From Acholeplasmatales bacterium DTU067 (GTDB lineage: Bacteria > Bacillota_I > Bacilli_A > ML615J-28 > CAG-698), in assembly GCA_001512995.1 (NCBI GenBank), contig LFRY01000004.1:1-36281 (forward strand): a stretch of DNA of 36,281 bases, written 5' to 3'. Both the position numbers and the translations under genes were made by a program. The notes under the pieces were generated by a model that searched no databases, was not told where the DNA came from, and saw only the letters and a list, made by a program, of their open reading frames with translations. Positions 5,583-29,101 of the stretch are shown here, piece after piece (positions within the stretch are counted from its first letter, which is position 1; every line of letters starts with the position of its first letter).

Positions 5583-7538
5583 TTGTTTCCTGAATTCGAT
5601 TATCAAAGCCGGAAGATAATTGCGGCAGCCGAAGCTGAGAAAAAAAGATTCGGGGCGGTCGGAAGCGAATGCCTGCTTTTGGGTATGATGAAAGCCAAGA
5701 ATTTGCTCTGTTGGGATTTCCTGAAGGAGACCGTGGCCAAGCAGGACATCGACAGCGAACTATCAAAGCTTGTCATTCTGAGAAAAAGCGCAAGCAATTA
5801 TACTTTTAAACTTTTGGAAATATTGAGGAATGCGAAAGCGGCGGCATTGCTGGAAAAAAGCAAATATGTTTTTCCCGAACATCTGCTCTATGCAATGCTC
5901 ACAACCCCCTCTTCCATTGCTCTGGACATTTTGGAAAGACTCGGGGCGGACGTCGGTCTTTTAATTGAAGAACTGAATAACATCTATTCCTTCCATGCTT
6001 CCGAGGACATGGCCGGCAATTATCTCGTCAACATCACCAAGGAAGCAAAATTGGAACGTCTGAACCCCTTCATCGGTCGCGCGGACTTGATTGACAAAAT
6101 CATCCGGATTCTTTCCAAGAAGCAGAAAAACAATCCGATGCTGATTGGGAGCGCCGGCGTAGGAAAGAGCGCTTTGGTCGAAGGGGTTGCCATGAAAATG
6201 CTTGAAGTCAATCCAAAAATCAATATCTACCGCCTTGATCTGGGGATGATCATTGCGGGAACGAAATACCGCGGCGATTTGGAAGAGAGATTAATTGAAG
6301 TCATGGACAGAATCAAAAACCCTTATTCGATTGTCTTTATTGACGAAATTCACAACATCGTTGGTTCCGGGTCCAGCGAAGGTACCCTAGACATCGCCAA
6401 CATTTTGAAACCGATTCTTGCCCGTTCAGAAATCAAATGCATCGGCGCGACGACCTTGGAAGAATATTACCGATACATCGAAAAAGACAAAGCTTTATCT
6501 CGCCGCTTTCAGAACGTGTTCGTGGATGAAGCCTCACCGGAGGAAGCATATGAAATCATTCGCGGAATTGCTCAGAAATACGAAGACTTCCACAAAGTCA
6601 AATACAAAGACCAGATACTGAGATACATCGTTTCTTCATCCGGATTTCTCGCCAACCGCAAACTCCCCGATAAGGCAATCGACATTATGGACGAAGCGGG
6701 TTTGGTTTGCAGGATGGCGGGAAGAAAGAACGTCACAAAGGCCGATGTCGACAAAATAGTTTTTGAAAACCTTGGCATTCGCTATGACAATGTCACCAAA
6801 AAAATCAAAACCGTGCCCAATTTCCAGAATCTTTCCAAATATTATTTTCAATATTTCATTAATCTTGGCATCAGAAAAACGATTCTCAACATCCAAACCT
6901 CCGAGGACTATCTGGATTTGCTGATCGATGATTTCAAACACGTCTTTAACATCAAAGACGAAGTCATCCTGAAACTGGATTTTGCCAGGTTTCACGAAAG
7001 CTTCCATTCTTCTTCCCTGATTGGCGCGCCGGCCGGCTATGTCGGTTATGAGAGCGGGGGCATTCTGACCGAACATGTTCTGAAATATCCGATCAGCGTC
7101 GTCGTCATCAAAAATTATCTTTCCGGAAGCAGGAACATCACCAACCAGATCGAAAGCATTCTAGGCGAAGGCAGCATCGTCGATTCCAAAGGAAGAACGA
7201 TAGATTTCCGGAATACAATTTTCGTGTTTTTGGAATCCGAAAGCGGCCAAAGAATTGGTTATTTGGGCGAGGCCAGAACCGAAAACAAAATCCTGCCCCT
7301 GATTGATGAGGTTGTTCTTGATTCGAAAAAGGACGATTATTATTTGGAAAAATTACGGCGCGTTTTGGAAAAAATGAAAACCTACAACTATGATCTCGTT
7401 CTTGACATTTCCTCGCTAGACAAGAAGACCTACGCAAAGGTTTTGAGCGAAATCAGCAATCTGGAAAATTTCAAACGGCATCGGACTTATGTCATAAAAT
7501 ACATTGATGACAAAATACTCTTTGAAACAAAAAAATGA
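5583..7538 (+). CDS. Clp/Hsp100-type AAA+ ATPase with inactive second ring
   Basis: Related to ClpA/ClpB/ClpC unfoldases but only 651 residues (relatives are about 750-860). Residues 1-140 are a Clp N-domain pair. AAA-1 is intact: Walker A G189-SAGVGKS, Walker B VFIDE (D254, E255), sensor-1 GATT, arginine finger region ALSRRF. AAA-2 keeps the signature GAPAGYVGYESGG (from G481) but the expected Walker A just before reads NIQTSEDY-like sequence without GxxGxGK, and the Walker B Asp-Glu pair is replaced by K510-N511; the C-terminal domain is shortened. No ClpP-binding (I/L)G(F/L) loop was recognised. The TTG start follows AGAGGTG. It has its own promoter and terminator. Confidence 0.85.
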   Translation: MFPEFDYQSRKIIAAAEAEKKRFGAVGSECLLLGMMKAKNLLCWDFLKETVAKQDIDSELSKLVILRKSASNYTFKLLEILRNAKAAALLEKSKYVFPEHLLYAMLTTPSSIALDILERLGADVGLLIEELNNIYSFHASEDMAGNYLVNITKEAKLERLNPFIGRADLIDKIIRILSKKQKNNPMLIGSAGVGKSALVEGVAMKMLEVNPKINIYRLDLGMIIAGTKYRGDLEERLIEVMDRIKNPYSIVFIDEIHNIVGSGSSEGTLDIANILKPILARSEIKCIGATTLEEYYRYIEKDKALSRRFQNVFVDEASPEEAYEIIRGIAQKYEDFHKVKYKDQILRYIVSSSGFLANRKLPDKAIDIMDEAGLVCRMAGRKNVTKADVDKIVFENLGIRYDNVTKKIKTVPNFQNLSKYYFQYFINLGIRKTILNIQTSEDYLDLLIDDFKHVFNIKDEVILKLDFARFHESFHSSSLIGAPAGYVGYESGGILTEHVLKYPISVVVIKNYLSGSRNITNQIESILGEGSIVDSKGRTIDFRNTIFVFLESESGQRIGYLGEARTENKILPLIDEVVLDSKKDDYYLEKLRRVLEKMKTYNYDLVLDISSLDKKTYAKVLSEISNLENFKRHRTYVIKYIDDKILFETKK

Positions 7539-7567
7539 ACCGGAAAAGAAATCCGGTTCTTTTCTTC
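7537..7567 (+). terminator. Intrinsic terminator of the clp-like gene
   Basis: GAACCGGA / TCCGGTTC (7537-7544 and 7552-7559) with an A-rich 7-base loop, followed by TTTTCTTCT. The stem starts inside the TGA stop codon. Confidence 0.85.
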
Positions 7568-7570
7568 TGA

Positions 7571-7598
7571 TTGTATTTGTCGGAAAATATGATATAAT
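7571..7598 (+). promoter_or_regulatory. Promoter of the helicase-like/ankyrin/cdaA operon
   Basis: TTGTAT (7571-7576), 16 bases, TATAAT (7593-7598) with a TGA extended -10 directly in front. It lies about 45 bases upstream of the start at 7644, and no terminator is seen until beyond cdaA. Confidence 0.6.
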
Positions 7599-7643
7599 AA
7601 TTTAAGTAAGGAAATAATATTATTAATTTTTCTGGGATGGATC

Positions 7644-10600
7644 ATGATGCGCGAATACCATAAATTCACTCTCGACAACAGCAACAAACATTTACTGGAT
7701 TTGTTTTACCAAAACGGTACTTATCTGGAAATCGGCAGCATTGACCATAACGTTTTGGTTCGGCTTTTGAATTTTGAACTGATTGACTGCGAAGACCTCG
7801 TATTTTTTCCCTTGCTTTTGCGCGGTCTGGGGAAATTCGATGTCGAAAACGAGAATTTAAAAAAGATCCTCCCTTTTTTGTTTTTTGAAAGACTGCATCA
7901 GAAGAATAAAAACAATCAGCTCTTTATCACCTATGGACTTCTCCATCATAAGGATGAACAAAAACGGGAAATTTTTTCGCCATTGGCGCTGATTCCCGTG
8001 AACATATATTTGGAAAACGGAAGAATTTTCATCCAGCAAATCGGTCGTCCTTTTGAAAATGCGATATTGCTTAGTTATTTGCTTAATGAAAAGAATATCG
8101 AAATTGCGGGGGGCGAAAAAATTGATTCCCCCTATGCTCTTGACGAATATTGTTTCAGCTTTGAGAAGCACGGCTTTTCGGTAAAACTTGAAAATTATCT
8201 GACCTTCGCCGCTTTGAAAGAGCCGGAACTGAAGTTGGAGCGGAGCCTCTTTGATTATGAGGGGGGATATCCTGAATATCTTTCCGATTGCCTCTATGAG
8301 GGCGAACCGGAACTTTATTACTCCCAAAAACTGACCCGCAGGCAGAGGCAGGCCGTTTATAAAGCTGTTTCCGGAGACAATCTCGTCATTGCCGGGAGGC
8401 TCGGGACCGGGAAAACCACTGCCCTGTTTAACATCGCCCTCAATGCGATTGCTTTCGGAAAAAGAGTCCTTTATGTTTCGAACATGAAGGAAAGTTTGGA
8501 GCAGATCCGCTCGCTCTTTGCGGGGTTGGGTCTTAACCATTACCTCACCGATCTCACAAATTCATTTGCCAGCATTCACCAACTGGAATTGTTCGACGAG
8601 CCAGATGGACGCGGCGGGGAAGCCGATTCGGAAAAACTGCATCAAAACTACCGTTTCATCAAGAAGTATGTCAGCGCAATGACGGGAAGAATTCTCGATT
8701 TCCGTTTCATCGACATCGTGAACAGTTTGGCGCGGATTGCGGAATTTCCGAAAAAGAAATTGGAAATTGACGATTTTTCCTCCCTTTACAAAAGCGAGTA
8801 CGAAGAAATCCATGCCGCTCTCAAAAAAATCGAAGAAAATTTGAAAAGAATCGGGGATTTCAATAAAAGCATCTGGAACGAAATTCCCGTCTTCAATAAC
8901 ATCAAATATCCCAATCAAATCTTTGCTTTGATTCATCAGCTGCAGAAGAATTATCTCATCCTCCAAGAACAAAAAGAAACCTTGGAACAGCGTTTCGGAC
9001 TGAAACCGATAAAAAACTATGCCTATCTGAAAAGCGTGTTCCATGATCTCAAAGGCTTGGACATTAACGCTTTCCCCCTCTCTTGGGTGAGCTCGGAAAC
9101 ATTCAGCGAAGCCCGGGAGGAATTCAAGTCCCTGAAAACACAAATTTACCAAATCCAGGAACTTGAGTATCTCTTGAGCTCGCGCTATGTCAATAATGAA
9201 TCCGTCGACATCGAAGCGGAAATGGCAGCCCTCTTCGGGCCCTTCTTCGGGGAAGAGGATGCGGAAAAGATCGACAGGCTTTTGAAAGAAAGGGCGGAAT
9301 TGAATGTCATCATCAACAAAATCTCCGTCCAAACAAAAATATACGAACGGAACAGGAAGAAGCTTGTCAATCTTTTGAATTGGGATTTTCCGCAGACGGA
9401 CCATGTTTTGAAGGAAATCTCCAATCTGAACGAAATCATCCAAACGACTGATTTCAGTCAGGAATTTCTGGCGACAATAAGCTCCGGAAACTATGAGGAA
9501 ACCGTGAAGAAACTCCGGAAGCTGGCGGATGCGATCGAAAAAACGGAAACGGAAATTGAGGAATTGTTCTCCGAAGGCGGAAGAGGAAAAACTAGAATCG
9601 GACGCGCGGAGGTTGACAAATTTCTGGAAGACAAACCGCTGAAGAAGAGTTCCCAGCGCTTGCTTGCCAATTTGAAAAAAGCAAACCCGCAAACATTTTC
9701 TGAAAAAATGGAGCGCTACCGCGGGCTGAAAACGCGCATTTCCGAATTGCAGGAGGAATTCAAGGCTCTATCGGGATTCCATTATGGGGAAAGCGTCTTT
9801 ACAAATCTGGACAGACTCCATTCCTATTTTGAGAATCTATCCGACAAGCTGATCAGATCCAAATTTTTGAAATTCCTGAAAAACGCAGCCAAGCTCGGCC
9901 CCGAGGACTTGAAACGGAAACGGAATTACCGCAATCTCTTTGATTTGTTTTCTAAAGCCTATCTGTTGATCAGCATTTACTACCGGGAATTATTGGCATA
10001 CGGCTTCAAGAATGCAGAAACTGAATTTCTGGGCAAACTGAAAGACATTGGCGTTATCTCCGGGTATTTGGAAAACCTCTATCTTTCCAATGAGCGCATC
10101 AAGGAGATCCAGAGGAATCGGGAACTTGATTATGTTTCCGCATCCGAATATCTTGAACTCCACAAACTCTTTTTGGGAATAAAAGAAAAGAAAGCTGTTT
10201 TGGAAGAAAACCACCGTTACCGCTATCTTTACGGAAAACTCTACGAGGATTACCATACAAACATCAACAATGTCTCCCGCTTCCTTCAAGCTTATAAATT
10301 ATATTCCGATTGTTTCGCCGACCAGGAGAAATTGATCGAAAGCTTGAACGAAGACACGCATATGGAATTGCTTGCCCATCTTGCGGTCTGCGAAGAAGCG
10401 AGCGAGAATTTGGCGGAAGTGTTTAAAATCTTTTTCAAGATTTTCCGGGACAGCGTTTCGAAATATTATTATTCGAGTTTTTCGGAAATCTTGGAATTCT
10501 TGGCGGAGCTTGCGGAAAGTAAGGACGAGCTCATCAGTTATCTCGCAGTGTCGGACAATTTGAGGATCCTGCACCGTCACGGCCTCACGAAACTGATTGA

Positions 10601-11906
10601 TTACATCCTGGCTCTGGAGAATCCGGAGAATCTGGCTTTAGATTTCAAATTCACCTATCTGGAAACGCTGAAGGAGCTTTATCTGGAGATGCATCCTTAT
10701 TTGGCGGATTATCAGGTTTTGGAATCCTGCCTGGAATTGGCGATGACCTATGAGGAGGAAATGATTGCCGCTTTTGAGAAGCAGACGATCCAGAAAATCA
10801 AGCGTCAAAGCAGCAATAAATTCCATCCGCTCGGAATCAGGAATTTGGATTACATTGGCTATATCCGGAGAACCACCGGAACCAAACATCTCTTTCTTAC
10901 TGACACGCAGATTCTGAATAATTTCCTGAACCCCGGTGATTTCGATTTGATATTGATTGATGATGCTCAACTCCTGCACGCCAACCATTATTGCAAAGCC
11001 CTGCAGGGGATGCAGGTCATCGTCGCGGGAGAACAGCAATTGCTTGGTTCGGTATCCGAAAACCTGATTTCCCGGGTCAGCAACAGCAAGACAATCATTT
11101 TTGATTTGCGTTTTTTGCCTACTCCGCACAGACTGCTGCGGCAGGTCAAGGGGCTCAGGGGACTCAGTTATGCCGATCTCATGAGCAATCAGGGAATCGA
11201 AATCGTCACGGAAGGGATCGACGAATTGATTTTATTGTTTGTGGAAAGGAATGGCGTACTCAATGTGTTCCTTCCCGGCATTGAAAGGCAGAGAGCGCTC
11301 TATGAAAAACTCGCCAATCTCCTCTTGGAAAAGAATTATAAGGAAGAAGAGATCATCGAGATTTTCCGGAAAAAGCTCAACATCTGCGACCTGGCATACG
11401 AATATCTCATCGATGCCGATTACAACATCTTCTATTTGGATGCTTATTACAAAACCGAATCCGATTATGAAATCGCAAACTTTCTTGACCTGTTGATGCT
11501 CTGCCGGAGGAAGATGATTGTTTATGATGGAATGAGATTGTTGGAAAGCGGAACGGAAACGAAGTTTTTGACCGAACTGAGGAAAATTGTTTTCAATCCG
11601 GACATCTGTTTTCCGAAAGAAGCGACGGGAGCGGTGGCGCTCCTTGCGGAGAGGCTCGAAGAAGCGGGCATCAAGGTGTATTCTTCATCCCTTTTCAGTC
11701 TGTTCCTACAAAAGGGAGAGAAATATTACGGAGTTCTGGTTTTTTGGTCGGAGGACAACGCTGATTACGAAATCCTCAATGAATACCGGGAAAACTATCT
11801 CCTCGGAAAAAAACTCATGGACATTTTTATCGTTTGGTCATGGGAATTGATGGAGTCAACCGCAAAAGTCTTCGAAAAAATAATGAGAGGAATGAAGGAT
11901 GTCTAA
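7644..11906 (+). CDS. Giant degenerate SF1 (UPF1/DUF4011-like) helicase-related protein
   Basis: Very large (1420 residues) cytoplasmic protein laid out like DUF4011-type helicase-nucleases. N-terminal 1-200: a DUF4011-like region (FSPLALIPVNIYLENG). RecA-1: LTRRQRQAVYKAV (Q-motif region), Walker A from G251 (GRLGTGKTT), then about 800 residues dominated by Lys/Glu coiled coil, Walker B LILIDDAQ (D1106, D1107) and motif III VIVAGEQQLLGS. The RecA-2 half is eroded: where QGxE (motif V) and VAxTRA (motif VI) belong I read LAYEYLIDADYNIF and DLLMLCRRKMIVYD. The last 90 residues follow the outline of the MTES_1575-type nuclease fold (ALLAERLEEAGIKVY ... FIVWSWELM) without catalytic D/ExK residues. 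It may therefore bind or hydrolyse ATP but is unlikely to be a processive helicase or nuclease. ATG at 7644 or 7647; the ribosome binding site (GGGATGG) is weak. It overlaps the next gene by 8 bases. Confidence 0.75.
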   Translation: MMREYHKFTLDNSNKHLLDLFYQNGTYLEIGSIDHNVLVRLLNFELIDCEDLVFFPLLLRGLGKFDVENENLKKILPFLFFERLHQKNKNNQLFITYGLLHHKDEQKREIFSPLALIPVNIYLENGRIFIQQIGRPFENAILLSYLLNEKNIEIAGGEKIDSPYALDEYCFSFEKHGFSVKLENYLTFAALKEPELKLERSLFDYEGGYPEYLSDCLYEGEPELYYSQKLTRRQRQAVYKAVSGDNLVIAGRLGTGKTTALFNIALNAIAFGKRVLYVSNMKESLEQIRSLFAGLGLNHYLTDLTNSFASIHQLELFDEPDGRGGEADSEKLHQNYRFIKKYVSAMTGRILDFRFIDIVNSLARIAEFPKKKLEIDDFSSLYKSEYEEIHAALKKIEENLKRIGDFNKSIWNEIPVFNNIKYPNQIFALIHQLQKNYLILQEQKETLEQRFGLKPIKNYAYLKSVFHDLKGLDINAFPLSWVSSETFSEAREEFKSLKTQIYQIQELEYLLSSRYVNNESVDIEAEMAALFGPFFGEEDAEKIDRLLKERAELNVIINKISVQTKIYERNRKKLVNLLNWDFPQTDHVLKEISNLNEIIQTTDFSQEFLATISSGNYEETVKKLRKLADAIEKTETEIEELFSEGGRGKTRIGRAEVDKFLEDKPLKKSSQRLLANLKKANPQTFSEKMERYRGLKTRISELQEEFKALSGFHYGESVFTNLDRLHSYFENLSDKLIRSKFLKFLKNAAKLGPEDLKRKRNYRNLFDLFSKAYLLISIYYRELLAYGFKNAETEFLGKLKDIGVISGYLENLYLSNERIKEIQRNRELDYVSASEYLELHKLFLGIKEKKAVLEENHRYRYLYGKLYEDYHTNINNVSRFLQAYKLYSDCFADQEKLIESLNEDTHMELLAHLAVCEEASENLAEVFKIFFKIFRDSVSKYYYSSFSEILEFLAELAESKDELISYLAVSDNLRILHRHGLTKLIDYILALENPENLALDFKFTYLETLKELYLEMHPYLADYQVLESCLELAMTYEEEMIAAFEKQTIQKIKRQSSNKFHPLGIRNLDYIGYIRRTTGTKHLFLTDTQILNNFLNPGDFDLILIDDAQLLHANHYCKALQGMQVIVAGEQQLLGSVSENLISRVSNSKTIIFDLRFLPTPHRLLRQVKGLRGLSYADLMSNQGIEIVTEGIDELILLFVERNGVLNVFLPGIERQRALYEKLANLLLEKNYKEEEIIEIFRKKLNICDLAYEYLIDADYNIFYLDAYYKTESDYEIANFLDLLMLCRRKMIVYDGMRLLESGTETKFLTELRKIVFNPDICFPKEATGAVALLAERLEEAGIKVYSSSLFSLFLQKGEKYYGVLVFWSEDNADYEILNEYRENYLLGKKLMDIFIVWSWELMESTAKVFEKIMRGMKDV

Positions 11907-12468
11907 ACGCGGCGAAAAAAAAAGATTTATGGAGTTTGTAAAAAGCGTGAAACAAAACCCGTTTCGCTACTATTACATAAAAAGTTCCCTGGCAAAAATG
12001 AAGGACGAAGAAATTGAGGTCAACACCCAGGATTATAACGGGCGCACGCTTCTGCATCTGGCCTTGAAGCTGAACAACCTCAGGCTCTTCAATTTATTCC
12101 TGAAATCCGGTGTCAATCCCGATTTGGCGGACATCAATGCGGAAACGCCCCTCCATCGGGCTGTTCTGGACGGAAAAATTAATTTCATAAGAAGTCTGAT
12201 CAAAAACGGCTGCGAAATCAATATCACAGGGGAGCAGGAACAGTCCCCCCTGCATTTGGCGGTTGTCTCCGGCAATCTCGACATCATTAAATTGCTGGTT
12301 GACAGCGGCGCCGACCTTTTGCTTGCGGACGAAAGCAATAATTTGCCGATTGATTATGCAATCGACGAAAAAGACGAAAAAGTCATCAGGTATTTGCTCT
12401 CGAAACAAGAGGTGGACGAGGAAAGAATGAATAAAATCAGAGAAATATTTGACAAGAAAGGTGAATGA
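11899..12468 (+). CDS. Ankyrin-repeat protein
   Basis: 189-residue soluble protein with about four consecutive ankyrin repeats (residues ~48-165): GRTLLHLAL, ETPLHRAV, QSPLHLAVVSGNLDIIKLLV and NLPIDYAI mark the helices, with inter-repeat loops NPDLADIN and DLLLADESN. The N-terminal 45 residues are basic (RGEKKRFMEFVKSVKQ) and could form a helix or bind nucleic acid. No signal peptide or membrane segment. Its ATG lies inside the end of the giant helicase-like gene (8-base overlap) and its stop is one base before the cdaA ATG, so the three are almost certainly co-translated. Ankyrin arrays bind proteins; likely partners are the neighbouring products, which is an inference. Confidence 0.85.
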   Translation: MSKRGEKKRFMEFVKSVKQNPFRYYYIKSSLAKMKDEEIEVNTQDYNGRTLLHLALKLNNLRLFNLFLKSGVNPDLADINAETPLHRAVLDGKINFIRSLIKNGCEINITGEQEQSPLHLAVVSGNLDIIKLLVDSGADLLLADESNNLPIDYAIDEKDEKVIRYLLSKQEVDEERMNKIREIFDKKGE

Positions 12469-12469
12469 A

Positions 12470-13276
12470 ATGATCTTGTTCAAGGATTTGATTGAAACAT
12501 TGCGCGATTATACGAAGGACTGGTCGGCGCTCGGAATCATCCGCTTATGCATTGATTTGCTTTTGGTTGGTTTCACGTTGTTTTTCATCTATAAATTGCT
12601 CAGGGCAAAAATTCGCGGTTATAAATTATTGCTCATTCTCCTCGGTTTTTCCTTCTTTTATTTGCTTGTCTTTTTCCTGCAATTGGAGCTCTTCCTCACG
12701 CTCCTGAATTACCTGATTTTTTGGAGTTTGGGTTTGCTCGTCATCATTTACACACCGGAGATCAGGCATTCATTGGAATATTTTTTCTCAGCCCATAAAA
12801 ACGCCTCCTTTTTTACAACCAAACAGGAAAAGAGGGAAATCATCAATATTCTTTTGTCCACGGTTGAATATCTTTCCAAGCGAAGAATGGGGGCGCTGAT
12901 CACGATTGAGCGCGAAGAAAATCTGAATAATTACATTGAGAAAGCAATCGAAATCAAGGGGACGATCACGCAGGAATTGCTGACGACGATTTTCACTCCG
13001 GGGACGGCCTGCCATGACGGCGCAGTCATCATCAGGAAAAACAAAATCATGTGCGCCGGTGCTTACCTCCCATCGACGGACAAGTACGACGTTCCGAAAT
13101 CTTTGGGGACCAGGCATCGGGCGGCAATCGGAATCAGCGAAAGAAGCGACGCTTTTACAATCGTCGTCTCCGAAGAAACAGGCAATGTTTCCGTCACGAT
13201 CGACGGCAACATCATGATGAAAATCAATATTGAAAGGTTGGAAGAACTGCTCGACCGCTATTTGATTCTCAAATAA
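12470..13276 (+). CDS. cdaA: Diadenylate cyclase CdaA
   Basis: Makes cyclic di-AMP from two ATP; c-di-AMP controls potassium, osmotic balance and cell wall in Firmicutes. The 268-residue protein has three N-terminal membrane helices (about residues 20-95) and a DAC/DisA_N domain with the catalytic DGA (ACHDGAVIIRKN), GAYLPST and the ATP-binding RHR (GTRHRAAIG) motifs. Length is typical. ATG 12470 follows AAAGGTGA; an upstream in-frame TTG at 12449 is less likely because it adds seven residues encoded across the ribosome binding site. Unlike the usual cdaA-cdaR-glmM order, it is the last gene of an operon with the giant helicase-like and ankyrin genes, and no cdaR (YbbR) or glmM follows. Confidence 0.95.
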   Translation: MILFKDLIETLRDYTKDWSALGIIRLCIDLLLVGFTLFFIYKLLRAKIRGYKLLLILLGFSFFYLLVFFLQLELFLTLLNYLIFWSLGLLVIIYTPEIRHSLEYFFSAHKNASFFTTKQEKREIINILLSTVEYLSKRRMGALITIEREENLNNYIEKAIEIKGTITQELLTTIFTPGTACHDGAVIIRKNKIMCAGAYLPSTDKYDVPKSLGTRHRAAIGISERSDAFTIVVSEETGNVSVTIDGNIMMKINIERLEELLDRYLILK

Positions 13277-13280
13277 TTTA

Positions 13281-13309
13281 TTGGCATCCCCGGTCTAGTG
13301 TGCTATAAT
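13281..13309 (+). promoter_or_regulatory. Strong sigma-A promoter for mgsA operon
   Basis: TTGGCA (13281-13286), 17-base spacer, TATAAT (13304-13309), with TGC in front of the -10 (extended -10). It starts 5 bases after cdaA ends and drives mgsA, the PAS protein, ispD and ispF. No terminator separates it from cdaA, so read-through from upstream is also possible. Confidence 0.85.
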
Positions 13310-13332: not shown

Positions 13333-13686
13333 GTGAGAATTGCTCTGATTGCCCATGACAAGAAGAAGAATGAATTGATTGATTTTGTAAAGGAAAACAA
13401 GGCTTTTTTTCAAGAGCATGAATTGGTTGCGACGGGAACGACCGGAAAAAGGCTCATTGACGAGACCGGCCTGACCGTCCGCTGCTATAAATCGGGGCCC
13501 TTGGGAGGTGACCAGGAAATCGGGGCGAATGTCGCCAAGGGAAGAATCGACATGGTGATTTTCTTCCGCGATCCCCTGACCGCCCAGCCCCATGAGCCTG
13601 ACGTGTCTGCGCTCCTCCGTCTTTGCGATGTTTATTCCATTCCGCTGGCAACAAACAGAAAGAGCGCCGAGTTGTTTGTAAAATGA
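13333..13686 (+). CDS. mgsA: Methylglyoxal synthase
   Basis: Converts dihydroxyacetone phosphate to methylglyoxal plus phosphate, a bypass that relieves sugar-phosphate build-up. The 117-residue product carries [10 protein letters not shown], the phosphate-binding GTTGKRL segment, [13 protein letters not shown] and the [15 protein letters not shown] motif with the catalytic aspartate region, plus the C-terminal LATNRKSAE. The length is close to the usual 120-150. It starts with GTG at 13333 after AAGGAAGTG. First gene of a four-gene unit. Confidence 0.95.
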
Positions 13687-13698
13687 GGAGGGGAAGAG

Positions 13699-15231
13699 AT
13701 GGATAGGATAGGCGAATTCATCATACAGAACGAAAGCTTTCTGACAGCCGTGCTTTCGCTGGTGTTGGTGCTCTTTTTTGCTGCTTTCGAAAAGAAAAGA
13801 AAGCTTCCGTTGCTTTCCTTGCTGATTGCCCTTTCAGCTTTGGCGGCGATCTTTGTTTATTGTTTTTTCCCCGAAATCATCCTTTTCGGTATTCCGTTTA
13901 CGGTATTGGCGGCAAGTTACATCGTTCTTGCCTTCTTTGTCAACCTCATAACTTATGCAGTATTGAATTCTTCCTTTTATAGGCGCATGCATCTTGTCAA
14001 AGTCGCGGCAGACAGCATCGGACACAAAATCTATGCCTATCTTGACAGTCACGCTCGCCTGCTTGATTTCACGGAAGAATTCGCAAACATGCTCGGTTTG
14101 AAAAAGAACAAGAAAAAGCATTACGAAGAAGCGGTCAGCAAGATTCTGGTTGACAGCCAAGAGATGGGTTTGAATGTTTTCATACATTATATCGGAACCC
14201 AGGAAGAAAGGGATTATCGGGTTGCGCTCACTCTTGAGGACGGCCGGACGCTGAAAATGGATCTGAAGAAAAGAAAAGTGATATCATCAGGAACGTTGCT
14301 CGGTTATGTGTTGCTCTCGTTTGCGGGGGTAAGAGCCGGGGACGGAGCAGAAGGTGCTACTTTAAACAATTACTTAAATTTTCTTGGCGAACCTATTTTT
14401 TATTATGATTTCCGCTTACGAAAATATGTTTTGACGCGCGAGATGATGAATCTTCTCGGTGTGTCGGAAAACGTCCTTGGGGAAAACAATTTTCTTTCAA
14501 TCGTGGTTTCTGAAGACATGCCCCTGATTTCAAAACGGGATCTGGGCGACAAAATCCAAAAAATCCATTACCGCCTGAAAACTTCCAAAGGCGATCTCTG
14601 GTTTGAAGAAAGCAACGTCAATTTCGAGGGGCAGAAATATCTGATTGCGCATCGAACCGATTTTTCAAATCTGAAAATGAATTTTCTTGACCAAAAATCC
14701 CTCCTTGAAACGGCGCGCCTTGTTTATGAACGCAATAATTGGCTGGCGCTGGCCCTGGTAAAGATCACCAACCATCAGAAAATCAAACAGCGGGTCGGAA
14801 GGGATGCCGGCGATGTGATTATCTCCCGTTTCTTCAGCCGCGCAGGGAGTGAACTCGGTCTGTCAAGTTTGAAGATTTATCGTTTGGAAGAGTCAGTTTT
14901 TGGGCTTCTGATTGATAAAAATGACCTTTATAACAGTTTGCTTGCGCTCCTGAACAAGGAAAACAATGTTTTTGTAAAAACGGAAATCAGTTTTAATGAA
15001 ATCCAATATCAAGTGGAAAGCGCGCTGGGAATCATCGGCAGTGAAAACGCAGAAGATTCCCGCCCGGAAACCATCATTCGCGGAGCTTACGAAGCCTTGG
15101 AATTGGCTGAAGATCCGAAATATGCCCGCAATTATTCCCTGTATGTTCCGAAAGCGAAAATCGATCTCGATTTGGACGACATGGGGATTGATTTGAGCGA
15201 TGATTTCCTTGACTCAATTCTAAAAGAATGA
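13699..15231 (+). CDS. Membrane PAS protein with degenerate GGDEF domain (GdpP-like front half)
   Basis: 510 residues. Three membrane helices (about 12-32, 36-55 and 60-90) are followed by two PAS-like regions (about residues 110-215 and 228-325) and a region with the outline of a diguanylate cyclase domain (about 340-410: NNWLALALVKITNHQKI, RDAGDVIISRFF) in which the GGDEF loop is replaced by RLEESVF (from residue 395). It therefore cannot make c-di-GMP. This order resembles the c-di-AMP phosphodiesterase GdpP (membrane helices, PAS, degenerate GGDEF), but the DHH/DHHA1 catalytic half is absent; the chain ends with an acidic tail (DLDLDDMGIDLSDD). A strong GGAGG site precedes the ATG. It sits 12 bases after mgsA, one transcription unit away from cdaA. 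Function unknown; sensor/regulator by inference. Confidence 0.7.
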   Translation: MDRIGEFIIQNESFLTAVLSLVLVLFFAAFEKKRKLPLLSLLIALSALAAIFVYCFFPEIILFGIPFTVLAASYIVLAFFVNLITYAVLNSSFYRRMHLVKVAADSIGHKIYAYLDSHARLLDFTEEFANMLGLKKNKKKHYEEAVSKILVDSQEMGLNVFIHYIGTQEERDYRVALTLEDGRTLKMDLKKRKVISSGTLLGYVLLSFAGVRAGDGAEGATLNNYLNFLGEPIFYYDFRLRKYVLTREMMNLLGVSENVLGENNFLSIVVSEDMPLISKRDLGDKIQKIHYRLKTSKGDLWFEESNVNFEGQKYLIAHRTDFSNLKMNFLDQKSLLETARLVYERNNWLALALVKITNHQKIKQRVGRDAGDVIISRFFSRAGSELGLSSLKIYRLEESVFGLLIDKNDLYNSLLALLNKENNVFVKTEISFNEIQYQVESALGIIGSENAEDSRPETIIRGAYEALELAEDPKYARNYSLYVPKAKIDLDLDDMGIDLSDDFLDSILKE

Positions 15232-16451: not shown

Positions 16452-16922
16452 CTAGAGTGGGAAATCGTCGACTTCCAAATATTTAAGCGGTTTTTCAGTT
16501 TGCGGATTCGGGATTGATATTTCATACAAAATTTCATTGATGAACTTATTGGTGTGTTTTGTCCGGGCAACATCGGCCAGGCTCACAACACCGCAGAGTT
16601 TCTTTTCGTCATTGACGACGACTAAGCGTCTGATTTGATATTCGCCCATCACTTCCAGGGCCCGGGAGACTTTTTCATCGCGGTGGATGTCGACCACCAC
16701 AGGCGTCATGACATCTTCAACGGTTGCTTCGCCCGAAAGCCCCCGCGCCAGCCCGCGGATGACGATATCGCGGTCCGTGAGCACGCCCAGAACTTCGCGT
16801 TCGGCGTTGACGACGGGAACGAACCCGATGTCGTGCTTTTCGAAAAGTTTCGCAACCTCCGCGATTTTTGTGTCCTTAGTTGCTGTTATAACTTTTTTTG
16901 TCATTAATTCTTTTATTTTCAT
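16452..16922 (-). CDS. CBS-domain pair protein
   Basis: 156-residue soluble protein made of two CBS motifs (residues ~6-60 and ~70-125; VEDVMTPVVVDIHRDEKVSRAL, RRLVVVNDEKKLCGVVSLADVA). Such Bateman modules bind adenine nucleotides or related ligands (in some Firmicutes c-di-AMP or AMP) and act as regulatory proteins. The last 30 residues are unconserved-looking (NPQTEKPLKYLEVDDF). GAGGTGAAATC precedes the ATG. It is the only minus-strand gene in the 5.5-36 kb part of the window. The ligand cannot be told from sequence alone. Confidence 0.88.
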   Translation of the reverse strand: MKIKELMTKKVITATKDTKIAEVAKLFEKHDIGFVPVVNAEREVLGVLTDRDIVIRGLARGLSGEATVEDVMTPVVVDIHRDEKVSRALEVMGEYQIRRLVVVNDEKKLCGVVSLADVARTKHTNKFINEILYEISIPNPQTEKPLKYLEVDDFPL

Positions 16923-17008: not shown

Positions 17009-17665
17009 ATGAAAGTCAAATCTTTTTTGAAATTTTCGAAGATTATCCTTTTCCTCTTCCTCCTCTTTTTTATGATCAACCTCATCTCCGGATATTTTTC
17101 CGAGAGGGTGCGGACCTATGTTGAACAAAAAGCGGAACTTGAAGTCGCAAACATCCTTGCTGCCGCCGTTTCTGAATCGGTCCTTCCCCACATCGACTTG
17201 GACGATTTGATCAAGACGGTGACGGTCGGAGGGGAAGCGGAAAGCATTTATATCAACACCTATCAGGTCAACAAGATTATGGCGGAAACCACGAAGGCAT
17301 TGCAAAGGGAGCTAGCAAGAATCGAAAACGACGAGGTGCTGAACAATTTAGTCCTCCCCTTTAACATCATCATCAGCGAAATCTTTTATACAAAATACGG
17401 TCCTTCCGTCAACATCGACATCCTTCCTGTCGGAAGCCTTGTCTGCGATGTCGTCACCACCTTCGATGATTACGGCATCAACAACATGCTGCTTGAGGTG
17501 AGCATCGTCGCGAACGTGAAGGTGCAGACGGTCATCCCCCTGCAAAAACAGGAAGTTGAAGTCGAAACCAGAATACCGATCGTCGTCCAGGTCATCCAGG
17601 GCAAAGTGCCGATTTATTATTATCACAACACCGACAGCAAATTCATTCCCCATCCGCTTCCGTAA
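17009..17665 (+). CDS. yunB: Sporulation protein YunB homologue
   Basis: 218 residues with one N-terminal membrane helix (about residues 10-30), then an extracytoplasmic domain typical of YunB: EQKAELEVANILAAAVSESVLP, a central segment ending with SEIFYTKYGPSVNIDILPVGSL, and a C-terminal region with the INNMLLEVSIVANVKVQTVIPL pattern that precedes VETRIPIVVQVIQGKVP. In Bacillus YunB is mother-cell expressed and needed for proper sporulation; its biochemical role is unknown. A TATAAT lies at 16990-16995 with no good -35; a sporulation sigma promoter could not be recognised. Identification rests on family resemblance I recall, without a search. Confidence 0.8.
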   Translation: MKVKSFLKFSKIILFLFLLFFMINLISGYFSERVRTYVEQKAELEVANILAAAVSESVLPHIDLDDLIKTVTVGGEAESIYINTYQVNKIMAETTKALQRELARIENDEVLNNLVLPFNIIISEIFYTKYGPSVNIDILPVGSLVCDVVTTFDDYGINNMLLEVSIVANVKVQTVIPLQKQEVEVETRIPIVVQVIQGKVPIYYYHNTDSKFIPHPLP

Positions 17666-25729: not shown

Positions 25730-28700
25730 ATGAAAGAAGTAACTTCCGAAAAATTAGATATCGTTGAAAACGCCAGCGAAGAAAAAGAAGAGCAAGCGTC
25801 GGAAACTTCCCAAGCTAAGAGCACTAAGAAGACGGGAAGCAAGAAGACGAAGAAAGATCCGGAAGCTGAAATGATGGATGCTCTCGAAAGAGTCAGGCAG
25901 GAAGAAAGAGCTAAGCTTGAGGCTTTGCAAGCTCGTGAACGGGAGAAGACCAGACAAATGGTCGAAAAAGAAAGAGCTAAATTGGAAGCTGAGTTGGAAA
26001 AAGAAATCAAAGCTCTGGAAGCGCAGCTTGCGAAGGAAATGGCCAAGGCAGAAATAACCGATCCTGTGCCGAGCCTAAGTCTGCGTGAAGAAAAACCCGA
26101 AGTTCCGAAAAGAACGCGGAAAAAGGCAGCTGCCAAACCTGCGACCAAAGTGCCTGCGGAAAAAGAAGTTGTCCAGACCGCAGTCGCAATCGATTTGGGC
26201 GATCAACCGGTGCCCGAAGCAGCAGCAGCCTCCGAGGCAAAAGTTCCGGCCAAAGCTCCTGCGGAAGTTCCTGTTCCAGCCGAAAGCATGGAAGCAGCCC
26301 AAGAGAGCGCGGCTCTTTCCGAAACCGCATTCGCCGATGCCGTGAGCGCGGACGTGGAACCCGGAGCGGCGGAAGTTCCTGCGGAAGTTACCGAAACCGT
26401 TGCCGTGGCCCCGCAAGAGGGCGCCGATGCCGTGAGCGCGGATCTGAAGCCTGGAGCCGCGGAAATCCCTGCGGAAGTTACGGAAACCGTTGCCGTGGCC
26501 CCGCAAGCCGGCACCGATGTGCCTCTGGAAAAGGCGGAAATAAGCGCAGAAATTGCCGCGCCGGCAACGGCAGAAAAGGACGCGGGTACCGTCATCAACA
26601 GTTTGGAAAAACTGCGTGAAAAGGTTTTTGCGCAAAAGCAGCTTGAGCGTGAGCTCCTTGAAAAAGAGGCGACGAGAATTCAGGAGAAAGATCGGCAGCT
26701 TCTTGAGAAAATCAATCTGGTTTATGAAGAACTCCAGCAAGAAGAATTGCAGGGAACCCAGACTCAGATTGATTCTTTGCTTGAAGAAAGCGAAAAGCTG
26801 AGAAGGAGAATCGACGAGCTCGAAGCGATTGTCAATAAAGTCAAAGCTTTGAAACTCAACGACATTTCCGTCATTGACGAGAAAACCTTCGAACTTACGA
26901 AGGAGTTCACCGTCTATGCCTCCGATTCCGCAAGCGTAAACAAACTCATCAAAGACATCGAGGCGGAATTGGAAAGCCTTACGGAAGAACATCAAAAATC
27001 GCTGGCGAAGTTGCGGGAAGCCGAAGCGGCGAAGGACCAGTTCTATGCGCAACTCCTCAAATTGGAATCCGAGAACAAGGCCAATCAGCAGGAAATCAAG
27101 AGATTGCGCACTGAATTAGAAAACAAAGAAAAGCTATATTATTCGCAGATCAGCAATCTGAATAATCAGATCCTCAAGGCCGAGGAAAGACTCAAGGAAG
27201 AAAGAGATAATATCCGCTCAGTTTTGATGGAAATCGAAACTCTCAAGTTCGAGAAGCAGAAACTGATGAACGAGAACACCGGCCTGAAAGCTGAAATCGA
27301 GATGCTTAAAGACAAACTGGAAAAACGGCTTGAATCCAGCATTGATGTGGCCGCCCGCATTGATTTGCTTGAAGCAGAAAAATCATTGCTTGAGAATAAA
27401 ATCCTTCAATTAAACAAACAATTAATCCATAAAGAAAGGATGAAACCCGAAGGGAGGGCGGACGATCCTTATTCGGATCTCCTCTCCGAAATCAGGCGTC
27501 TGAAACAGGATGTTGAAGAATTGAAAACAAGGCAATTTCCGTTCTTCATGCCTGATTTTTCCGCCTACTCAGATGCGGAAAAAAACTGCCCCTATGTCCG
27601 CTTTTTCAATCCCATGCTCATCCCCAATCTCACACCCCAGCCCCAGCCCCTGAACGAAGAATTGGTCAGGGAAGTCAGAGAACTGAAAAAAGAATTTGAA
27701 AACTTCAAACAGGGAAAATCCTCTGACGAAGATGGGGCCGATAACGGCGAGAAACAAAGGCTGGAGGAATATTCCCGGAAACTTGAAGAATATCGGGAAG
27801 AATTGGAAAGGAACAAGGCCGAATTGAACCTTTTGGCCGAAAGAAAGGATAAGGAGATCGCCAAAATCACGCAAGACTTTGAAACGCAGATGCAGGCGAA
27901 GGACAAAGAAAAGAACATGATCAAAGCGGAAAAAGAGAAAAAAATTCAAGAACTCCAGCAAAAAATCCGGGAAAAGGATGCTTTGATTGAGAAAATCAAC
28001 CAGGAAGTCAAACGCCTGACAGAAGAGGACATCTTCGATCCTGAGTTCAAACGGAAAATCAGGGTCATCAGGGACATGCGCAGGGAATGCGAAGAAAAAG
28101 CAGTGAAGATGGAAGAAGAGCATTTGCATAATGTGAAGGCAGTCAAGGAAAAGATCGACGGCAAAAATTTGGAAATTGACGTCATCAACGACAGAATCTT
28201 CCAACTGGAAATGAGTTTTCGGCAGGCAGGCGATTACAGCAGCGCCGCCCAAGAAGAATATGAAAAAAGCAAAAGCAAATTGTTGCTTGAACGCGGGCTT
28301 CATGAAGAAAAATTGCGCGAATTGGAAGAAGACATGAAGCGCCTGGAAAGCAAGTACGAGGATTTCCTGAAAGGCAATGCTGAGGAAATTGAAAAACTGA
28401 ACAATCAGGAAGCGGAGACAATCGAGTTCTACTTAAACAAACTCCGCCGTTCCCGCGCAAAGCAGCTGGAAGGTTTTCAGAATCCGGAAAGCGAAAAGCA
28501 GGAATTGCTAGATCAGCTTGACAGGCTGAAGGAAGAACCCGAAAGCAATCCCGACGAAATCGAAGTCGACATGCCTTTTGTCGCTCCGCAGGAAGACAAA
28601 TCCTCTGACCTTGAAAATGAAATCGAGGAATTGACCCGGCAGTACAGCGTATACTACAGTCAAATCACGGAACTGAAAGCCGAACAGGACAAGCGCGTTG

Positions 28701-29101
28701 AGGCCGAAAAAAGACTCCGGATGAACGACAGGAATGTATATGACTATTGCAGCAGCAAGGTCAATCTCGAAGAATGCCTGAAGGCATATCAGGAGAAGAG
28801 TCTGCTTGCGGAAGAGAAAGAAAATGAGCTGAGCAGGACCGGTGACCGTTCCGCGCAGTTGAAGCTGAAGGCGGAGCTCCAAGACCTGGAAGTGCACAGG
28901 AATGATCTGCGCGCCAAGATTGATTTTTACAGGAAACAAATTCAGGAGTTTGAAAGAGCGGACATTGTCCAGAAATATCAGTCCCTGCTCATGCAAATCG
29001 AAAAAATCAACAACATCCTCCGGGAGAAACGCGAAAAAGCCCAAGAAATAAAAGCTCTGGTTCAAGCAAAAACAAGAGAATTGGAGATGTTAAGAGGATA
29101 A
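25730..29101 (+). CDS. Large cytoplasmic coiled-coil protein
   Basis: 1123 residues, no signal peptide, membrane helix or nucleotide-binding motif. Order: Lys/Glu-rich start (residues 1-115), a flexible Ala/Pro/Glu/Val-rich linker (about 120-285) with a 30-residue tandem repeat, then heptad-rich coiled coil to the end, broken once at about 600-640 by an aromatic and proline-rich stretch (FFMPDFSAYSDAEKN, NLTPQPQPL). The overall shape is that of a rod-like scaffold; it lacks the ATPase heads of SMC or Rad50 and the repeats of a surface protein. AGAGGAA precedes the ATG; the next gene starts immediately after its stop. Role unknown; a cytoskeletal or polar scaffold tied to the two upstream membrane proteins is the most natural guess. 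Confidence 0.8.
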   Translation: MKEVTSEKLDIVENASEEKEEQASETSQAKSTKKTGSKKTKKDPEAEMMDALERVRQEERAKLEALQAREREKTRQMVEKERAKLEAELEKEIKALEAQLAKEMAKAEITDPVPSLSLREEKPEVPKRTRKKAAAKPATKVPAEKEVVQTAVAIDLGDQPVPEAAAASEAKVPAKAPAEVPVPAESMEAAQESAALSETAFADAVSADVEPGAAEVPAEVTETVAVAPQEGADAVSADLKPGAAEIPAEVTETVAVAPQAGTDVPLEKAEISAEIAAPATAEKDAGTVINSLEKLREKVFAQKQLERELLEKEATRIQEKDRQLLEKINLVYEELQQEELQGTQTQIDSLLEESEKLRRRIDELEAIVNKVKALKLNDISVIDEKTFELTKEFTVYASDSASVNKLIKDIEAELESLTEEHQKSLAKLREAEAAKDQFYAQLLKLESENKANQQEIKRLRTELENKEKLYYSQISNLNNQILKAEERLKEERDNIRSVLMEIETLKFEKQKLMNENTGLKAEIEMLKDKLEKRLESSIDVAARIDLLEAEKSLLENKILQLNKQLIHKERMKPEGRADDPYSDLLSEIRRLKQDVEELKTRQFPFFMPDFSAYSDAEKNCPYVRFFNPMLIPNLTPQPQPLNEELVREVRELKKEFENFKQGKSSDEDGADNGEKQRLEEYSRKLEEYREELERNKAELNLLAERKDKEIAKITQDFETQMQAKDKEKNMIKAEKEKKIQELQQKIREKDALIEKINQEVKRLTEEDIFDPEFKRKIRVIRDMRRECEEKAVKMEEEHLHNVKAVKEKIDGKNLEIDVINDRIFQLEMSFRQAGDYSSAAQEEYEKSKSKLLLERGLHEEKLRELEEDMKRLESKYEDFLKGNAEEIEKLNNQEAETIEFYLNKLRRSRAKQLEGFQNPESEKQELLDQLDRLKEEPESNPDEIEVDMPFVAPQEDKSSDLENEIEELTRQYSVYYSQITELKAEQDKRVEAEKRLRMNDRNVYDYCSSKVNLEECLKAYQEKSLLAEEKENELSRTGDRSAQLKLKAELQDLEVHRNDLRAKIDFYRKQIQEFERADIVQKYQSLLMQIEKINNILREKREKAQEIKALVQAKTRELEMLRG
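26336..26515 (+). repeat. Two 90-bp tandem repeats in the coiled-coil gene
   Basis: Units at 26336-26425 and 26426-26515 are nearly identical in DNA, each encoding 30 residues that begin DAVSAD and end near VAVAPQ. The shared segments GATGCCGTGAGCGCGGA and GAAACCGTTGCCGTGGCC are exact. In-frame, inside the flexible Ala/Pro-rich linker. Confidence 0.9.

Follow-up and report, generated by a model that had tools for sequence, protein, structure and literature searches.

A conserved operon joins the c-di-AMP cyclase CdaA to a putative pseudo-helicase and an ankyrin-repeat protein

In the 36,281-nucleotide stretch of DNA analysed here (the window), the gene for a membrane diadenylate cyclase, CdaA, stands directly behind the genes for a large degenerate helicase-like protein, termed BIG, and an ankyrin-repeat protein, termed ANK. 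The same three genes (the trio) are contiguous and co-directional in 44 of 47 BIG-bearing genomes from three families, and because order and strand recur in this way the trio is not a chance assembly; co-selection of BIG, ANK and CdaA is well supported. The usual partners CdaR and GlmM are missing from the locus and BIG and ANK are found there instead, which bears out the claim, made in a preliminary description of this DNA, that the partners of cdaA are unusual. We propose, as a reading that we hold to be about as probable as not, that the operon is a lineage-specific c-di-AMP synthase module in which BIG and ANK, in place of CdaR and GlmM, would control CdaA.

Organization of the locus

The three genes lie on the forward strand. 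BIG (7644-11906) encodes a 1420-residue protein that appears to be a pseudo-helicase, degenerated from the SF1 (UPF1/DUF4011) type, in which a long helical and coiled-coil insertion parts Walker A from Walker B. It overlaps by 8 nt with ANK (11899-12468), which encodes a 189-residue ankyrin-repeat protein, and a 1-nt gap separates ANK from cdaA (12470-13276), whose 268-residue product starts at the ATG at 12470. The layout of three reading frames overlapping or one base apart, ending at position 13276, is as first described. Inside the cluster, no convincing promoter or terminator was found, the number of candidate sites being the same as in shuffled sequence. A terminator-like hairpin (7537-7559, forward strand; 8-bp stem with 5 G-C pairs and a T-rich tail) at the 3′ end of the preceding ClpC-like gene would set that gene apart from the trio, and a strong promoter-like site 3′ of cdaA (13281-13309, forward strand; 11/12 matches with a TG extension), assigned to mgsA and the genes downstream, would bound the operon. 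The weak promoter-like site upstream of BIG (7589-7618, forward strand; 9/12 matches) is by itself no evidence. A single promoter for BIG, ANK and cdaA, as had been proposed, is thus a candidate reading, consistent with the lack of excess internal sites, the hairpin before the cluster and the promoter-like site after it.

The upstream gene (5583-7538, forward strand) encodes a short ClpC/ClpA-like protein of 651 residues, which is often the upstream neighbour of BIG; its first AAA module is intact, and the second is matched from profile position 30 onwards, seemingly without a Walker A motif. Downstream, mgsA (13333-13686, forward strand), encoding methylglyoxal synthase, is often, not always, a neighbour of cdaA. 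It is followed by a gene (13699-15231, forward strand) for a degenerate GGDEF protein, whose relatives add PAS domains and which often adjoins cdaA; a GGDEF-type gene recurs near cdaA even in families that lack BIG (L111, L114). No DHH/DHHA1 or other phosphodiesterase domain was found in this protein, which resembles a GdpP-type protein reduced to its front half; on the question of a c-di-AMP phosphodiesterase, DHHA1 proteins do exist, as identified at the level of domains. About 3 kb from cdaA, a reverse-strand gene (16452-16922) encodes a stand-alone protein with two CBS domains, which bears a resemblance to the c-di-AMP-binding protein CbpB but falls far below its model (36 versus 125 bits). 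A further gene (17009-17665, forward strand) encodes a YunB-like sporulation protein (107.4 bits against a cut-off of 111.9), in a lineage that databases name Acholeplasmataceae/Tenericutes. Similar genes are found after the locus in a number of f2 genomes, a hint at spore or spore-derived functions. Further along, a 1123-residue protein (25730-29101, forward strand) gave no Pfam match, and its C-terminal end gave only a weak one, to an SMC-like NCBIfam model.

Distribution and linkage of the trio

The first set of relatives comprised 60 genomes, 42 of them from the window's own order (families f1 and f2), and gene neighbourhoods were compared across 59 stretches from relatives and the window. 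CdaA was found in 58 of the 60 relatives and BIG in all 42 from the same order (43/43 with the window's genome); together with four genomes of family f4 these make up the 47 BIG-bearing genomes, and the two of these four that were added after the profile search described next also carry the trio. A search with a BIG profile through 395 genomes of the class and 392 of the phylum (overlapping draws) returned no full-length BIG outside f1, f2 and f4. Those near relatives that have names, all in f1, are uncultured metagenome assemblies labelled Acholeplasmataceae, Tenericutes or Bacilli.

The close packing seen in the window is general: the distance from BIG to ANK ranges from -62 to +6 nt (41 junctions) and that from ANK to CdaA from -26 to +19 nt (40 junctions). 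The flanks differ among genomes, with ClpC-like, HflX, ribonucleotide reductase and other genes upstream and mgsA, the GGDEF-type gene and others downstream; the trio persists while these flanks change, which rules out chance adjacency or plain synteny. FastTree phylogenies have 26 of 36 splits in common between BIG and CdaA, 23 between BIG and ANK and 22 between ANK and CdaA, against at most 3 when BIG-CdaA labels were shuffled, and BIG identity across the three families is 15-20%. The relatives were thus checked for regular separation of the three genes, and the contiguity that prevails among them upholds the conserved unit of the preliminary description.

In two genomes of genus g14 (G015 and G024), BIG is followed by CdaA after a spacer of 57-60 nt and ANK is absent; a profile search did not find ANK elsewhere in the g14 genomes. 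Read by eye, this spacer contains a conserved promoter-like element, TTGCAA-17-TACGAT (L075:8038-8098 and the equivalent in L086). In G022, contig ends split the trio, BIG and ANK lying at one end and CdaA at another. The apparent lack of ANK in L097 and L098 is a gene-calling artefact, ANK being present in frame. Stop codons interrupt the BIG of one f4 genome (G078; L125:2-4078), in which ANK and cdaA follow, owing to decay or to sequencing or assembly error.

CdaA and the absence of its usual partners

The window CdaA scored 200.2 bits against the NCBIfam CdaA model TIGR00159 (equivalog cut-off 188.8) and 139 bits against DAC, and it aligns to solved CdaA structures. It is the only CdaA of its genome, and in most genomes searched no cyclase other than CdaA was found. 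Its catalytic motifs are DGA (13016-13024, residues 183-185) and RHR (13112-13120, residues 215-217), both on the forward strand; among 47 trio CdaAs, D183, G184 and R215-R217 are present in 47/47 and A185 in 43/47, so that nearly all keep the catalytic motifs and are predicted diadenylate cyclases. In the CdaA tree, a branch with support 95/81 separates the trio CdaAs from the rest. Immediately ahead of the DAC domain, all eight CdaR-type CdaAs carry FQxEIR, whereas the form FQxEI[KR] occurs in just one of the 47 trio CdaAs. According to published work, CdaR contacts CdaA in the latter's transmembrane region (PMC8573169, PMC10243994), and we infer that FQxEIR may be part of this contact. Most trio CdaAs retain the arginine of the GlmM-contact region, and this residue therefore gives no hint of a changed cytoplasmic partner.

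Of the 45 trio genomes tested, 43 gave no match to YbbR/CdaR (PF07949): the window's own and 42 of the other 44. In the exceptions, G017 and G039, YbbR stands on separate contigs next to a further cdaA of the canonical kind; the two assemblies rank among the more contaminated, these cdaA-cdaR pairs are probably contamination, and the two YbbR genes were therefore set aside. Among 13 CdaA-bearing members of the class that have no trio, eight contain YbbR, and where inspected their CdaA is followed by CdaR- and GlmM-sized genes. The other five have neither a YbbR match nor BIG, so loss of CdaR does not demand replacement by the trio, and because the correlation between the trio and CdaR loss is based on about two clades it is phylogenetically weak. 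GlmM (TIGR01455) is linked to cdaA in no trio genome, and at E<=1e-30 neither the window's genome nor most trio genomes yielded a GlmM match; by the lack of cdaR and of glmM alike, the window locus falls outside the canonical cdaA-cdaR-glmM arrangement. Loss of the cell wall is not the explanation, because mraY, a peptidoglycan gene, occurs in the window's genome and has a patchy presence among trio genomes: many f1 and f2 genomes and both f4 genomes tested carry it and others do not, all with the trio.

BIG is a degenerate relative of DUF4011 helicases

The window BIG is a P-loop SF1 protein that matches DUF4011 at 20.0 bits, below the gathering score of 22.2, and 8 of 19 BIGs match DUF4011 at E<=0.01. 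The alignment of its residues 87-370 to L126, a DUF4011 helicase from the same class, has a probability of 98.8%; among solved structures, profile searches matched IGHMBP2 and Sen1; and the NCBIfam helicase models ProA and Hhe gave 103 bits (cut-off 1500) and 28 bits (cut-off 2000), respectively. Against the PADLOC model PDC-S37, BIG scored 86 bits and L126 1000 bits. A model of residues 221-1420 (mean confidence 70.8) returned Setx/Sen1/UPF1-type folds; with mean model confidence of 70.8 and 61.0 and matches among SF1/SF2 helicases, the fold searches are only broadly informative. The C terminus was modelled as alpha-beta-beta-beta-alpha-beta and matched a tRNA splicing endonuclease (prob 0.99) with a low TM-score. 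Coiled-coil matches to SMC-like proteins were uninformative.

Walker A of the window BIG (GRLGTGKTT, residues 251-259; 8394-8420, forward strand) and Walker B (ILIDDAQ; 10950-10970, forward strand) are separated by about 850 residues, largely helical. Walker A is kept in all f1 and f2 BIGs that include the region and is gone in f4, where VENRHHKLQ and AKQGTRK are found; the first Walker B aspartate, D1106, is invariant in 41 BIG sequences, and the position of the catalytic glutamate is usually occupied by aspartate. The arginine of motif VI (TRA[KR]) is present in none of the 41, and Pfam searches of BIG yielded neither AAA_12 nor the MTES_1575 nuclease domain. The closest complete relatives observed, L126:3841-8331 and L127:2103-6524 (family f21), are PDC-S37-type DUF4011-AAA-MTES_1575 helicases of 1473-1496 residues that have both motif VI and AAA_12 (domain order in L126: DUF4011-AAA_11-AAA_12-MTES_1575-DUF3320) and do not lie near cdaA. 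By these comparisons BIG is predicted to descend from DUF4011/UPF1-like helicases of the PDC-S37 type. Because motif VI is absent, AAA_12 and MTES_1575 are unmatched and Walker A is lost in f4, it is best described as a putative pseudo-helicase, which probably binds nucleotide in f1 and f2 and probably does not in f4. The earlier view of BIG as a degenerate UPF1/DUF4011-type protein gains from the L126 alignment, the IGHMBP2, Sen1 and ProA matches and the uniform loss of motif VI.

ANK carries a conserved acidic surface

The window ANK matches Ank_2 at 93.7 bits. Beyond the ankyrin consensus, E112, E114, D144, E145 and E157 are conserved in most of 43 sequences, and E145 in all of them, which suggests a conserved binding face on ANK. 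We do not claim that this surface mimics GlmM on the CdaA arginine, since g14, which has no ANK, keeps the arginine. The preliminary description suggested that ANK may bridge BIG to CdaA, so that nucleic-acid or nucleotide status would set c-di-AMP output. The first idea is weakened by g14, which lost ANK yet has BIG still adjoining CdaA, and the second by f4, in which BIG lost Walker A yet stays in the trio, so that ATP sensing is not obligatory there.

Discussion

Activity of CdaA requires head-to-head association of its DAC domains. GlmM binds the cyclase domain and prevents this association; CdaR and GlmM both bind and regulate CdaA, CdaR through the membrane region; and DisA, another cyclase, is bound and inhibited by the RadA helicase, whose gene adjoins disA (PMC8573169). 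In the model that we favour, CdaA would be an active membrane-anchored diadenylate cyclase, as predicted from its motifs; BIG would be a pseudo-helicase partner, with Walker A and an altered Walker B in f1 and f2 and with motif VI and recognisable nuclease residues absent everywhere; and ANK would be an adaptor. BIG and ANK would replace CdaR and GlmM in the control of CdaA, acting most likely on the assembly of the DAC domains into the active head-to-head form, which they would either promote or block. Replacement is suggested by the contiguous trio, the absence of CdaR, the loss of FQxEIR, the agreement of the trees and the precedents of CdaR, GlmM and RadA. Against it speak the dispensability of ANK in g14, the CdaR loss in genomes that have no trio, the small number of clades behind the correlation and the retained arginine of the GlmM-contact region. 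Its parts differ in strength: a physical complex of BIG or ANK with CdaA seems to us evenly balanced between true and false, control running from BIG and ANK to CdaA falls somewhat short of that, and that BIG senses ATP or nucleic acid is doubtful. Since g14 does without ANK and f4 without Walker A, the constant part of the module seems to be the scaffold of BIG, and neither ANK nor the binding of ATP.

Among described systems, the Firmicutes cdaA-cdaR-glmM operon (PMC8573169, PMC10243994) likewise has three genes, with a membrane CdaA of the same family and co-encoded partners. Unlike it, the trio has BIG and ANK as partners, both upstream of cdaA; clean trio genomes have no YbbR, GlmM is unlinked or absent and CdaA lacks FQxEIR. 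The radA-disA pair is a precedent for the way of working, as the gene of an ATPase/helicase that binds and inhibits a c-di-AMP cyclase lies directly upstream of the cyclase gene (PMC8573169); the two systems differ, however, in that RadA is an active helicase of another family and BIG a degenerate member of SF1, and in that DisA is a soluble, DNA-scanning enzyme and trio CdaA a membrane-bound one. The DUF4011 SF1 helicases with putative or known roles in defence (PDC-S37, Hhe, ProA) have, like BIG, an N-terminal DUF4011-like region, RecA1, a helical insertion and Walker A and B, but BIG gave no match to AAA_12, motif VI, MTES_1575 or DUF3320 and stays far under every family cut-off.

The same genes could work in the opposite direction, with BIG and ANK as the effector and c-di-AMP, or CdaA as a membrane anchor, controlling BIG on nucleic acids or membranes. 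Effectors encoded in the same operon are common in nucleotide signalling, and conservation of Walker A and the Walker B aspartate in f1 and f2 suggests that BIG still binds nucleotide. However, the loss of motif VI in 41/41 sequences and of Walker A in f4 makes a conserved motor activity of BIG unlikely, domain searches observed none of the known c-di-AMP-binding domains in BIG or ANK, and we regard this direction as rather improbable. Conserved operons can also unite genes that have nothing but expression timing in common. If so, BIG and ANK would have an unrelated housekeeping role and would have only the transcript in common with cdaA, in keeping with the status of all three as ordinary single-locus genes of the lineage and with the promoter-like spacer before cdaA in g14, by which the linkage can loosen. 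The trio nevertheless outlives the change of both flanks across three families at the low BIG identity given above, its junctions stay overlapping, and CdaR loss and the altered CdaA motif accompany it; expression coupling or operon inertia is on this evidence unlikely.

Anti-phage defence, with CdaA making an alarm signal and BIG as sensor or effector helicase, would fit the closest described relatives of BIG, the defence helicases ProA, Hhe and PDC-S37. The trio is nonetheless inherited order-wide, in single copy, at one locus and with largely congruent trees, unlike patchy defence islands, and this inheritance disfavours defence. The scores of BIG stay under the family cut-offs (ProA, 103 of 1500 bits) and a patchy or mobile distribution is not seen; the defence-like paralogue class (PDC-S37, L126) is located elsewhere, without cdaA; and CdaA is in most genomes the only cyclase found. 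We consider defence very improbable. More ambitious is the idea that a defence-type helicase was domesticated to a pseudo-enzyme that gates CdaA through an ankyrin adaptor, the ATP or nucleic-acid occupancy of BIG setting c-di-AMP; this we think unlikely as well.

Our preferred reading remains that of BIG and ANK as controlling partners of CdaA. Among open-access papers on CdaA or c-di-AMP in connection with ankyrin proteins, DUF4011, Mollicutes/Acholeplasma or gene neighbourhoods, no account of the trio was found; as this scope takes in open-access papers, novelty of the trio is not proven. The trio is apparently a CdaA operon with unrelated, substituting partners, and in two related, poorly known and mostly uncultured groups BIG and ANK probably took over control of CdaA. 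With a pseudo-helicase and an ankyrin protein in the place of CdaR, these groups would then provide a natural experiment, in which partners of a different fold act on a CdaA that is itself conserved and in which the natural loss of ANK from g14 and that of Walker A from f4 reveal the indispensable part of the module. A defence-type helicase would, moreover, have become a regulatory scaffold and, if occupancy of BIG does gate CdaA, the c-di-AMP network would have gained a new input.
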